The notes beneath the pieces are model-generated. The model worked only from the letters and a program-made list of their open reading frames with translations, was not told where the DNA came from and made no database searches. Positions 52,498 through 59,100 of a stretch of DNA of 64,000 bases are shown in pieces. Source of the stretch: Halorussus limi (lineage in GTDB: Archaea > Halobacteriota > Halobacteria > Halobacteriales > Haladaptataceae); NCBI RefSeq assembly GCF_023238205.1, contig NZ_CP096659.1:3241626-3305625 (forward strand). The letters are read 5' to 3'. How positions within the stretch are numbered: the first letter of the stretch is position 1; each line of letters starts with the position of its first letter. The position numbers and the translations under genes were made by a program.

Positions 52498-52745
52498 CTC
52501 GTCTCATACGACAGAGGGGCCGGAAATAAAATTTTGTATTCCTCCAGGTGCGAATAGATGACTCTCCCTGACTACGTGTGCGAACGATGAGCAACGTAGC
52601 GATTCCGCGATATACGTGCAATGAGAATGAGTGCCAATCAGTTAAAGCGTGACGGCTGAAACGCGAGTGCGGTCAGCGACCGAACGCGCGATGGTGTTTC
52701 GGACCCGTCGCGGGGCGACCCGGCGGTGCGGACGACGCCGCGGCC

Positions 52746-53195
52746 TCACTCGTCGTACTCGCGCTTGAACCCGCGGAACTCGGTCCGGTGGGCCTCCTCG
52801 TCGGCGAGGATGGTGACTGCGATGTCTTCGGTCACGGGGTCCTCGTCGCCGGCGGCCGAGATGAGCGAGCGGTACGTCTCGATGGCGTCCTCCTCGGCGT
52901 CGAGGACGCCGTTGATGACCGACAGCACGTCGGTGCTGTTCTCGGGCGGTTGGAGACTCTCCTGGCGCGCCTCGAAGTCGTAGGAGGCGGGCGGACGCTC
53001 GTCGAGTTGCTTGAGTCGCTGGCCGAGCATCTCGGCGTGGTTGAGTTCCTCCTGAATGTCGGTTTCGAGGCTCTCTTTGACCTCCTCCGCGCTCACGCCG
53101 TCGAGGATGATCGAGTTCGTCAGGTAGTTCATCACGGTCTCGATTTCGTCGCTGTACGCCTTCTTAAGCAGGTCCGTGACCTCTTGGTTCGTCAT
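52746..53195 (-). CDS. Ferritin-like domain protein (rubrerythrin/bacterioferritin type)
   Basis: A 149-residue four-helix di-iron-type protein. Iron ligands are the Glu/His pairs in DEIETVMNYL (helix 1), EELNHAEML (helix 2, ExxH), EEDAIETYRSL (helix 3) and DEEAHRTEF (helix 4, ExxH). Such proteins oxidise or store iron or reduce peroxide. It stands alone, with AT-rich DNA upstream. Substrate unknown. Confidence 0.88.
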   Translation of the reverse strand: MTNQEVTDLLKKAYSDEIETVMNYLTNSIILDGVSAEEVKESLETDIQEELNHAEMLGQRLKQLDERPPASYDFEARQESLQPPENSTDVLSVINGVLDAEEDAIETYRSLISAAGDEDPVTEDIAVTILADEEAHRTEFRGFKREYDE

Positions 53196-53470
53196 ACGCC
53201 CGAGGATACGTTCGCCAGCCTTCTTACTGTTCCGGCGGTGACAGTCTGCGCGCGGTCATCGCACGACCGGGGCGTCCGCGAGCGACAGGCACCGTCGTTT
53301 CGGCGCGCCCGAGAATATTCTGGACTCGAATTTTGAAAATCAACCATTTTGATAGCGATTACAATTCTGGTTAGCGAGCGTGATATAAGGAGGGTTAAGG
53401 AATCCCCGATAGTTACAGGACGTTTCCCTCGGGCGATTTCGGTCTCGGCCGTCCGCGAGCGAATATGTAA

Positions 53471-53485
53471 GTCGAGATACTCGAC
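53471..53485. promoter_or_regulatory. Perfect palindrome upstream of leuA
   Basis: GTCGAG-ATA-CTCGAC is a perfect 6-bp inverted repeat with a 3-base centre, 17 bases upstream of the leuA TATA box. This is where an activator or Lrp-type regulator would bind in an archaeal promoter. Confidence 0.5.
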
Positions 53486-53501
53486 CTGTTACAGCGGTAG
53501 G

Positions 53502-53509
53502 CTTAAATA
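53502..53509 (+). promoter_or_regulatory. TATA box for leuA transcript
   Basis: CTTAAATA lies about 27 bases before the ATG at 53536, the spacing of a leaderless haloarchaeal promoter. Together with the palindrome it defines the leuA promoter. Confidence 0.5.
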
Positions 53510-53535
53510 CGGGAAGCGCTCCATGACGGAGTACA

Positions 53536-53599
53536 ATGTCTGACAACGACATGCACTCGTCCGATACCAGTCGGGCGGGTCGAGTTCTTCGACGGTACG

Positions 53600-53610
<11 letters not shown>
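53536..53610 (+). CDS. 24-residue ORF at the leuA 5' end (uORF or shifted leuA start)
   Basis: ATG 53536 opens MSDNDMHSSDTSRAGRVLRR and ends in TAA at 53608-53610, overlapping the leuA frame. It sits at leaderless distance from the TATA box. In the leuA frame the DNA just upstream reads GRVEFFDGTL, a natural LeuA N-terminus, so translation starting at 53536 would need a +1 shift near 53572-53580 (GGGCGGG). It may be a regulatory uORF, a true frameshift or a sequencing error. Confidence 0.5.
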
Positions 53611-54763
<1,153 letters not shown>

Positions 54764-54916
54764 TGGCGTCCCCCGGGTTCGCCTCGCACTGCCAGCCGCG
54801 CGCGGCGGGTCCGACGGGGCCCCCAAGCGGGCGTGTGACACTCCCGCGACCTTCGCGCAATGGTTGCGCCACGGGAAAGGGTTATGAACGTCGGGGTCGG
54901 TACGTTCCCAGTAACG

Positions 54917-55045
54917 ATGCGACAGTCACCGACTGCCACCGGCACGAGACGCCTCGCGTCTCGGCGCACGCTCGCGGCGGACGCAGCGGGCGCACCGGCC
55001 GCCAGCAGTGCGACTGTCGAGCGCGCGATTATTGTAGGGGCCTGA
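54917..55045 (+). CDS. 42-residue leader peptide upstream of ilvB
   Basis: ATG 54917 to TGA 55043-55045. It encodes MRQSPTATGTRRLASRRTLA and ends TVERAIIVGA. The final codons include Ile-Ile-Val, the end products of the downstream pathway, and the stop codon lies in the loop of a perfect hairpin. This is the arrangement expected of a leader peptide controlling the ilv operon by attenuation. A start 19 codons upstream (ATG 54860) is also in frame. Whether archaea use such a mechanism here is inference. Confidence 0.5.
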   Translation: MRQSPTATGTRRLASRRTLAADAAGAPAASSATVERAIIVGA

Positions 55046-55053
55046 GCCCCTAC
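55034..55053 (+). promoter_or_regulatory. Hairpin overlapping the ilv leader stop codon
   Basis: GTAGGGGC-CTGA-GCCCCTAC: a perfect 8-bp stem with a four-base loop, and the leader ORF stop TGA (55043-55045) lies in the loop. No T-run follows, so a plain terminator is less likely than a ribosome-responsive structure. Confidence 0.65.
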
Positions 55054-55204
55054 AACACCACTTCTCTGACCCGACGTTCCGCATCGTTTTCGAACCGACC
55101 AGTACGCGCTCGACCATCAGTGACACGGAATCGCACGACACCGAGAAACCCAGCGGCACCGCCAGCTAACGACGCCAGACGAACCTCTCCGGGGGTCGGT
55201 TGGC

Positions 55205-56950
55205 GTGAGTGAACACGCACCGCCGAAGTCCGACGCGGCCGACGACGCCGAGACCGACACCGGCGTCGAAACCGGCGCGGAGGCGGTCGTCGCCGCCCTC
55301 GAAAGCGCCGGCGCCGAGACGCTGTTCGGCGTGCAGGGCGGCGCGATAATGCCCGTCTACGACGCGCTGTACGACTCGGACCTCCAGCACGTCACGATGG
55401 CCCACGAGCAGGGCGCTGCCCACGCCGCCGACGCCTACGGCGTGGTGTCGGGCGAACCCGGCGTCTGTCTCGCCACGTCCGGCCCCGGTGCGACCAACCT
55501 CGTCACCGGCATCGCCGACGCCGACATGGACTCGGACGCGATGGTCGCGCTGACCGGGCAGGTCCCCTCGCACATGGTCGGCTCCGACGCGTTCCAGGAG
55601 ACCGACACGACCGGCGTCACCGCGCCGATTACGAAGCACAACTACTTCGCGGGCGACGCCGACACGGTCGGCGACACGGTCGGCGAGGCGTTCGCGCTGT
55701 CGGCCGAGGGCCGACCCGGCCCGACGCTCGTGGACCTGCCGAAGGACACGACCCTCGCCGAGACCGACGCCGAACCCGGTCCGGCCGAGACACCCGAGAC
55801 CTACTCGGTCGAGGAGGACCCCGACGACGAACAGGTCGAGGCCGCGGCCCGCGCCATCGAACGCGCGGAGAAACCGCTGCTCCTGTTCGGCGGCGGCGTC
55901 GTCAAGAGCGACGCCTGCAAGGAGGCCCGCGGGTTCGCGATGGAACACGGCATCCCGGTGGCGACGACGATGCCCGCTATCGGTTCGATGCCCGAGGACC
56001 ACGAACTCTGCCTGTCGTGGGCCGGGATGCACGGCACCGGCTACGCGAACATGGCCATCACGCACACCGACTGCCTGATAGCCGTCGGCACCCGGTTCGA
56101 CGACCGACTCACGGGCGGCGTCGAGACGTTCGCGCCCGAGGCCGAGGTCGTTCACGTCGACATCGACCCCGCGGAAATCTCGAAGAACGTCCACGCCGAC
56201 TACCCCGTCGTCGGCGACGCGGCGACGGCCATCGAACGCCTCGACGCCGAGATGGACCGCTCGCCCCAGACGCGTGAGTGGCGCAGTCAGTGCCGAGCGT
56301 GGAAAGACGAGTACCCGCTGGCCTACGCGACGCCCGACGACGAACCGCTCAAGCCACAGTTCGTGGTGGAAGCGTTCGACGAGGCGACCGACGACGACGC
56401 CGTCGTGACGACCGGCGTCGGCCAGCACCAGATGTGGGCCGCCCAGTTCTGGACCTACCGGAGTCCCCGGACGTGGGTCTCCTCGCACGGTCTGGGCACG
56501 ATGGGTTACGGCGTTCCGGCCGCCATCGGCGCGCGAATCGCGGCCGACGACGACCAGCAGGTCGTCTGCTTCGACGGCGACGGGTCGTTCCTGATGACGA
56601 TGCAGGAGATTTCGGTCGCGGTCCGGGAGGACTTGGACATCACCGTCGCGGTCCTCAACAACCGCTACATCGGGATGGTCCGCCAGTGGCAGGACGCCTT
56701 CTTCGACGGCCGACAGATGGCCGCCGACTACGACTGGTGTCCGGAGTTCGACAAACTGGCCGAGGCGTTCGGCGCCAAGGGCCTGCGCGTCGACGACTAC
56801 GACGAAGTCGCCGACGCCGTCGAGGAGGCGCTGGAGTACGACGGTCCGGCGGTCGTCGACTTCCACATCGACCCCGCGGAGAACGTCTATCCGATGGTTC
56901 CCAGCGGCGGAGCAAACGGGAAGTTCGCCCTCTCGGAGGACCAACTATGA
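55205..56950 (+). CDS. ilvB: Acetolactate synthase large subunit
   Basis: A 581-residue ThDP enzyme from GTG 55205 that makes acetolactate and acetohydroxybutyrate. Catalytic Glu is in MAHEQGAAHAADAYG, CoA/FAD-type region GPGATNLVTGIADA, and the ThDP motif GDGSFLMTMQEISVAVREDL with NNRYIGMV is at about 458-495. Its final codons overlap ilvN (ATGA). The gene lies 150 bp after the leader hairpin. Confidence 0.95.
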   Translation: MSEHAPPKSDAADDAETDTGVETGAEAVVAALESAGAETLFGVQGGAIMPVYDALYDSDLQHVTMAHEQGAAHAADAYGVVSGEPGVCLATSGPGATNLVTGIADADMDSDAMVALTGQVPSHMVGSDAFQETDTTGVTAPITKHNYFAGDADTVGDTVGEAFALSAEGRPGPTLVDLPKDTTLAETDAEPGPAETPETYSVEEDPDDEQVEAAARAIERAEKPLLLFGGGVVKSDACKEARGFAMEHGIPVATTMPAIGSMPEDHELCLSWAGMHGTGYANMAITHTDCLIAVGTRFDDRLTGGVETFAPEAEVVHVDIDPAEISKNVHADYPVVGDAATAIERLDAEMDRSPQTREWRSQCRAWKDEYPLAYATPDDEPLKPQFVVEAFDEATDDDAVVTTGVGQHQMWAAQFWTYRSPRTWVSSHGLGTMGYGVPAAIGARIAADDDQQVVCFDGDGSFLMTMQEISVAVREDLDITVAVLNNRYIGMVRQWQDAFFDGRQMAADYDWCPEFDKLAEAFGAKGLRVDDYDEVADAVEEALEYDGPAVVDFHIDPAENVYPMVPSGGANGKFALSEDQL

Positions 56951-58719: not shown

Positions 58720-59100
58720 ATGACCCGACCCGACCGACACACCCAGACCCGAGACGACTCGACGACCGACCAGACCGCCGACGACACCCCGATGCGCGAC
58801 GTGAGTCACACTCATCCCCACGCCGCGCGCGGCACCGTCAACCGACCGTTCCAGCGCGGACCGGTCGTCGCGGCGGACGGCGGCGAGAGAGACGCCGTCT
58901 CTCGAACGTCGGAGGACGAGCGGAGCGAGTCCTCCGAAAGTGAACGAGAAGCGCGCGACGCCGACGCTCGCGAGGAGGACGACGAGGAATCGCGCGCCGA
59001 CCGGATGAAAGACGTGGCGCACACGCCGCCCTACGGCGAGGGCGCGGACCGCGTCTTCGAGCGCGGCGGCGAGCGCGAACCCGTCGAATCCGAAGAGTAA
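58720..59100 (+). CDS. 126-residue protein between ilvC and leuC, internal repeat
   Basis: Starts two bases after ilvC. A low-complexity acidic protein that carries two related segments: RDVSHTHPHAARGTVNRPFQ near the N-terminus (26-45) and KDVAHTPPYGEGADRVFERG near the C-terminus (95-114). The conserved Asp-Val-x-His-Thr-x-P pattern suggests a short binding motif. From memory a small protein at this place is typical of haloarchaeal ilv-leu operons. No enzymatic feature; perhaps a chaperone or regulator of LeuC/IlvC. Confidence 0.65.
   Translation: MTRPDRHTQTRDDSTTDQTADDTPMRDVSHTHPHAARGTVNRPFQRGPVVAADGGERDAVSRTSEDERSESSESEREARDADAREEDDEESRADRMKDVAHTPPYGEGADRVFERGGEREPVESEE

Follow-up and report, generated by a model that had tools for sequence, protein, structure and literature searches.

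Gene control by leader-peptide attenuation is known from bacteria and requires a ribosome following close behind RNA polymerase. In the enterobacterial ilv, leu, pheST and trp attenuators, cognate codons are placed in a leader peptide encoded ahead of the operon for biosynthesis or the gene for the tRNA synthetase, and the E. coli pheST leader is Phe-rich. A ribosome-mediated leader-peptide attenuator of ilvBNC has been described in Actinobacteria, including the ilvB leader of Corynebacterium glutamicum (PMC11857589, PMC10272879, PMC1262725). In the archaeon Haloferax volcanii, 16 short uORFs were found by TSS mapping, and those listed include a 26-aa uORF before pheS (HVO_2948); 5' UTRs of 150-250 nt were examined, the table given there holds no ilvB entry, its account of the uORFs proposes no sensing mechanism, and structured-leader control is called untypical of haloarchaea (PMC4983044). 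Transcription-translation coupling has been reported in H. volcanii (PMC8576121). No report of archaeal leader-peptide attenuation was found in the open-licence literature.

The leader described here, upstream of ilvB in Halorussus limi, resembles the Actinobacterial ilvBNC attenuator in having a short uORF with Ile/Val codons before ilvB and hairpins in the leader RNA, but differs from it in that the stop codon is located in a conserved hairpin beside the proposed sensor codons, and in that leader sequence and organism are unrelated. Two bacterial loci (L112 and L114) carry VVVVGAWRR-type leaders before ilvB with, by eye, an obvious GC hairpin and U-run terminator (GGAGGCCTCCC...GGGAGGCCTTTTT), whereas the archaeal leader is without one. 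The cognate-codon logic is that of the enterobacterial attenuators, from which the archaeal leader differs by its near-leaderless start, by having two or three sensor codons only, and by offering at most a candidate terminator/antiterminator pair. With the uORFs listed for H. volcanii (PMC4983044) it shares a short uORF within a 5' UTR, one of those listed preceding pheS. Apparently new, as judged from the open-licence literature, is a leader of this kind that is archaeal, near-leaderless, has its stop codon in a hairpin and is without an intrinsic terminator.

The window analyzed is a 64,000-nucleotide stretch of the H. limi genome (contig NZ_CP096659.1, positions 3,241,626 to 3,305,625), and the leader and operon features given below are on its + strand. 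The leader ORF (54917-55045; ATG at 54917-54919, TGA at 55043-55045) consists of 42 codons plus stop, and its product, MRQSPTATGTRRLASRRTLAADAAGAPAASSATVERAIIVGA, ends ...AIIVGA; the Ile-Ile-Val codons ATT ATT GTA at 55028-55036 are the proposed sensor codons. A TATA-like box of the leader promoter, TTATGA (54882-54887), lies about 30 nt 5' of the leader ATG, and two further in-frame ATGs 5' of the start (54884 and 54860) overlap or precede this box. The stop codon is enclosed by a hairpin (55032-55055) with loop CTGA, in which the exact stem GTAGGGGC (55034-55041) / GCCCCTAC (55046-55053) is lengthened by two further A-U pairs to 10 bp, so that 55032-55041 pairs with 55046-55055. ilvB (55205-56950; acetolactate synthase large subunit, GTG start, TPP-enzyme domains) begins 159 nt after the leader stop, and the gene order was read as ilvB-ilvN-ilvC-(small protein)-leuC-leuD-leuB. 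The original prediction, made from the letters of this locus, was that a 42-codon ORF at leaderless distance from a TATA-like sequence and ending ...RAIIVGA precedes ilvB, encodes end products of the operon, and has its TGA in the loop of a perfect hairpin. Each of these points was borne out in the window, the loop being 4 nt long and the stem longer than first seen, and the position before ilvB, the promoter-proximal start and the Ile-Val end recur across the order as detailed below. The comparison that it had proposed, of leader ORF and hairpin in other haloarchaea, found both conserved order-wide.

An inverted repeat, GCAA-TGG-TTGC (54857-54867), is located 5' of the TATA-like box and is a possible transcription-factor site. 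A GCAA-N3/4-TTGC repeat was observed upstream of the leader in 30/91 loci, other sequence being present in its place in Halorubrum and Natrinema; it may be an operator for a transcription factor.

For comparison across the order, the regions upstream of about 100 ilvB loci were extracted, 91 of which were aligned, and the element was searched for with a covariance model of 59 positions. The model matched 352/392 Halobacteriales genomes (321/345 good-quality genomes) in 83/95 genera; none of the matches listed from a 345-genome phylum-wide sample lay outside Halobacteriales. At nearly every haloarchaeal ilvB locus, a short ORF begins with ATG and ends I-V-G-(A/V)(X)-stop: the end Ile-Val-Gly-(Ala/Val/Pro), plus or minus one codon, then stop, was found in 91/91 aligned loci and, by pattern, in 19 of 20 additional loci from other genera, the remaining one (L279) being a model match only. 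The leader stop and the ilvB start are separated by a median of 142 nt across loci.

Leader length ranges between lineages from about 16 to more than 60 codons, and the start is tied to the promoter. In the loci in which a TATA-like box was matched (n = 78), the first ATG located 19-36 nt past the box shares the reading frame of IVG, with no intervening stop, in all but one (77/78). Box end and leader ATG are 23-30 nt apart in these loci, from which a 5' UTR of about 0-7 nt is predicted; the window leader, with a predicted 5' UTR of roughly this length, would likewise be near-leaderless. So short a 5' UTR is the usual case in haloarchaea; in H. volcanii, 72% of transcripts are leaderless (PMC4983044).

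Conservation within the ORF is concentrated at its end. The last Ile codon is Ile in 91/91 aligned loci with synonymous change only (ATT 66, ATC 25), the Val codon is GTA and the Gly codon GGG in 91/91 each, and the stop is TAG in 40, TAA in 26 and TGA in 25; in the operon genes of the window, GTA accounts for 3.5% of Val codons and ATT for 14% of Ile codons. Among 28 Halorubrum-type leaders, all of 24 codons, the middle codons are free in amino acid and codon 21 is Ile in 28/28 with its third base free, which argues that the constraint is on frame, length and the Ile/Val end and not on the whole peptide. The 8 residues preceding the conserved Ile-Val are enriched in Ile (10.7% vs 0.8% in the rest of the leader) and Val (18.5% vs 4.5%), and with the Ile-Val present in every aligned locus, codons for the operon's end products thus occupy the position at which an attenuator would read them. 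Taken as a comparative coding signature of the leader ORF, this pattern appears strong. The invariant codons are one Ile and one Val only, which is few for a starvation sensor. As a separate observation, codons 15-18 of Halorubrum-type leaders (e.g., L041 and L050) read GGAGCCGTCGC nearly invariantly, wobble positions included; selection on the peptide alone does not explain such wobble invariance ahead of the Ile/Val codons.

Two alternatives place the function in the peptide itself. In one, the leader would encode a functional microprotein acting in trans and would be close to ilvB by chance, as retention of the C-terminal I-V-G-(A/V) over the whole order might suggest; given that neither sequence nor length is conserved in the remainder of the peptide, and that nucleotide conservation runs past the stop into untranslated RNA, this is extremely improbable. 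In the other, nascent ...IVG(A/V) would act as an arrest peptide that halts the ribosome at the stop when free Ile/Val or a metabolite is sensed, in place of stalling at the codons by uncharged tRNA, and the small number of cognate codons, together with the conserved Gly-Ala/Val after Ile-Val and the conserved stop placement, is consistent with it. Gly-Ala/Val, however, is accounted for by the GGGG arm and a pyrimidine, and several lineages allow one more, variable codon ahead of the stop (VGAA, VGAF, VGAL and others), with VGPA in one lineage; we consider arrest improbable.

The second conserved component is the hairpin. In the 91 loci the stop is always inside the loop, of 4-12 nt, of a stem of the GGGG/CCCC type, which is GGGC/GCCC in one lineage. 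A stem with at least 4 G-C pairs around the stop was found in 91/91 loci compared with 40% of controls in which the 60 nt downstream of the stop were shuffled, and a stem with at least 5 G-C pairs in 72.5% compared with 7.8%. The stop-in-hairpin element is not due to chance, given this excess over shuffled controls and its recurrence in the 352 genomes. At the level of single pairs, each of the 4 core pairs is a standard one in 87-94 of 94 sequences, and the outer G-C and U-A pairs are retained in half to three quarters of them, the outer U-A pairs falling to 49-66%. Compensatory changes are few (five cells with a change on both sides) and include GGGG/CCCC to GGGC/GCCC in L095/L096 and a loop-closing C-G to U-A in Haladaptatus-type leaders; covariation at the level of pairs is weak, the core stem being nearly constant. 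With the Rfam 15 covariance models, no match was obtained up to E 1 in window positions 52500-56000, nor up to E 0.5 in loci L109 and L145.

A near-invariant palindrome just downstream of a promoter could also be read as DNA, with GTAGGGG...CCCCTAC bound by a transcription factor and the ORF incidental. Consistent with this, GTA and GGG are fixed even at wobble positions, and GTA remains unchanged even in loci whose 3' arm has lost its pairing with it, a sign of an extra codon- or sequence-level constraint. Against it, the half-sites are separated by anything from 4 to 12 nt where a palindromic operator would have fixed spacing and symmetric half-sites, the second half-site is degenerate (as in the outer U-A pairs above), promoter distance varies widely, and the Ile codon is kept with its wobble free. 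Variable spacing and a stop codon ever-present between the arms argue for an element acting as RNA, and a DNA operator is accordingly rated highly improbable.

In the Halorussus group the hairpin is enclosed by a second pairing. In the window, the 5' arm GTCGAGCGCG (55016-55025, within Val-Glu-Arg codons) pairs with the 3' arm CGCGCTCGAC (55105-55114); this outer helix is 10-12 bp long in 17/17 Halorussus-group loci, where GTCGAGCGCG, in the codons directly ahead of Ile-Ile-Val, pairs perfectly with CGCGCTCGAC at a distance of 57-73 nt from the stop. An equivalent helix of 11 bp with unrelated sequence is found in Halobacterium, and swapping 3' regions between clades abolishes the outer helices of both Halorussus and Halobacterium. 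As a universal feature the outer helix was rejected, since in Natrinema, Halogranum and several others it did not rise above the swapped controls. On examination for mutually exclusive pairings, the inner hairpin was present everywhere and the outer helix clear only in some clades.

Between the hairpin and the 3' arm of the outer helix lies a C-rich, G-poor pyrimidine tract (55056-55104), a putative landing site for a termination factor. Across the 91 loci, the 60 nt after the hairpin's 3' arm have a mean C content of 0.43 and G content of 0.21, being C-rich and G-poor relative to the leader ORF, and a CUUCYYC...CGAC...CGCAYCG trend is conserved in this RNA. A conserved U-run is absent after the hairpin, TTTT occurring within 20 nt of it in 4/91 loci, and a terminator-like pattern anywhere was found in 11/91 loci; the leader does not therefore have the features of an intrinsic terminator. 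A terminal T-run (CGTTTTC) was also considered as terminator and rejected, TTTT occurring anywhere in the spacer in just 16/91. The combination of C-rich, G-poor RNA with no conserved U-tract makes factor-dependent termination or translational control possible.

On the ORF, its codons, the hairpin, the stop position, the promoter spacing, the distribution and the re-use at a second locus described below, the best reading of these comparisons is a ribosome-sensed leader peptide, responsive to branched-chain amino acids and working like bacterial attenuation; we put the probability that it is a cis-acting, translation-sensed switch reporting charged Ile-/Val-tRNA to the ilv-leu operon at roughly three in four. 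Transcription would start at the leader ATG or a few nt before it, so that a ribosome could load at once on the leaderless or near-leaderless RNA behind RNA polymerase. With sufficient Ile/Val, the ribosome would read AUU-AUU-GUA-GGG-GCC, reach the stop in the hairpin and leave, after which the hairpin would re-form, enclosed in Halorussus by the second long helix; untranslated C-rich RNA would then be exposed, and most transcripts would give no ilvB output. Under shortage of Ile or Val, the ribosome would stall on the Ile/Val codons and cover the 5' arms of the hairpin and the outer helix, keeping the leader open for transcription or translation into ilvB. As the arms would be covered with an Ile or Val codon in the A site and free after release, starvation would correspond to an open leader and sufficiency to a closed one, the same sense of control as in bacterial attenuation. 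Ribosome stalling, the direction of control and premature termination as the off-step are what we infer from this layout; the off-step would perhaps depend on an archaeal termination factor and not on an intrinsic U-tract terminator. Of the resemblance to bacterial attenuation that had been claimed originally, the attenuator-like layout is well supported by comparison, whereas, with U-runs scarce and an alternative pairing convincing in some clades only, classical transcription attenuation is at most a candidate mechanism.

The termination step is less certain than the translation-sensed switch as a whole, and here premature termination on the exposed C-rich RNA is our first choice, followed by translational control, in which the leader ribosome would change how the 5' RNA folds, how stable it is or how translation re-initiates on it, so that translation or decay of ilvB would differ and no transcript would end early. 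Such control overlaps the main reading in its sensing part, and the missing U-tract terminator, the distance from leader stop to ilvB start, the SD-like motif found before ilvB in 45/90 loci and the outer helix of some clades are in keeping with it; no conserved structure over the ilvB start was seen, however, and the conserved block adjoins the leader stop, far from that start. On balance it is unlikely, if worth serious weighing. A TATA-like box between leader and ilvB was found in 0/90 loci.

The IVG element also appears away from ilvB. The operon of the window contains, downstream of ilvC as in other haloarchaea, a gene for a small unknown protein (58720-59100) with two D-V-x-H-T-x-P repeats and no Pfam match; its motifs are D-V-(S/A/D/N)-H-T-x-P and VFERG. 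In Haladaptatus-type genomes this gene lies outside the ilvB operon with its own IVG leader: these genomes have a second copy of the element, which precedes the small-protein homologue in 7/7 inspected loci (L145, L170-L173, L175 and L176; at 2144-2404 in L145). The leader thus accompanies the small operon gene even when it is detached from ilvB. At the second locus of L145, the GCAA-N3-TTGC repeat is present together with the IVG leader.

A leader with other codons was found before pheS. Of 28 pheS loci from across the order (L187-L210 among them), about 19 have a short upstream ORF with a Phe-rich end, typically GFGFFFA(A/S/R/G), which recalls the E. coli pheST leader; that of H. limi itself (L198) is MPSEPPLGGSARQPRHQRAGFGFFFAS. 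Phe is encoded by TTT at 17/70 positions in pheS leaders vs 1/73 in the operon genes of the window. Downstream, a conserved GGYGGA...GAAACCG pairing is hairpin-like and unrelated to the ilv hairpin, and the element gave no Rfam match up to E 0.5 in L198 and L206. Upstream regions of tyrS and trpS were used as negative controls, and no leader with cognate codons was found in 27 tyrS loci or in 20 loci of chromosomal trpS. Two independent leaders with matching codons make sensing much likelier than ilvB alone would. It is conceivable, at slightly under even odds, that haloarchaea have a general, domain-specific leader-peptide attenuation, serving ilv-leu, the detached operon gene and pheS, in which translation of a near-leaderless short ORF controls factor-dependent termination in place of an intrinsic terminator, as an independently evolved archaeal counterpart of the bacterial systems. 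If the proposed switch is correct, it would be in vivo evidence that gene control in archaea draws on transcription-translation coupling, and would reveal the way in which branched-chain amino acids are sensed by an archaeon; the proposal can be put directly to the test in Haloferax volcanii.

A further anomaly was observed beside the operon, at the start of leuA (53579-54763 in the window), where a short ORF in another frame (53536-53610) encodes MSDNDMHSSDTSRAGRVLRRYVEN. An ATG 34-46 nt upstream opens such an out-of-frame short ORF in 65/65 haloarchaeal leuA loci, overlapping a conserved VEFF-x-GTL in the leuA frame, and in 53/65 loci the leuA frame has no ATG, GTG or TTG before R(V/I)FDTTLRDG. 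Programmed +1 slippage at GGT/GAT-CGA may account for this arrangement, as may an unusual start. For H. volcanii HVO_1510 the start problem is already on record, and ribosomal slippage and control by leucine have been proposed for it (PMC8305020); the out-of-frame start extends beyond that gene and across the order.
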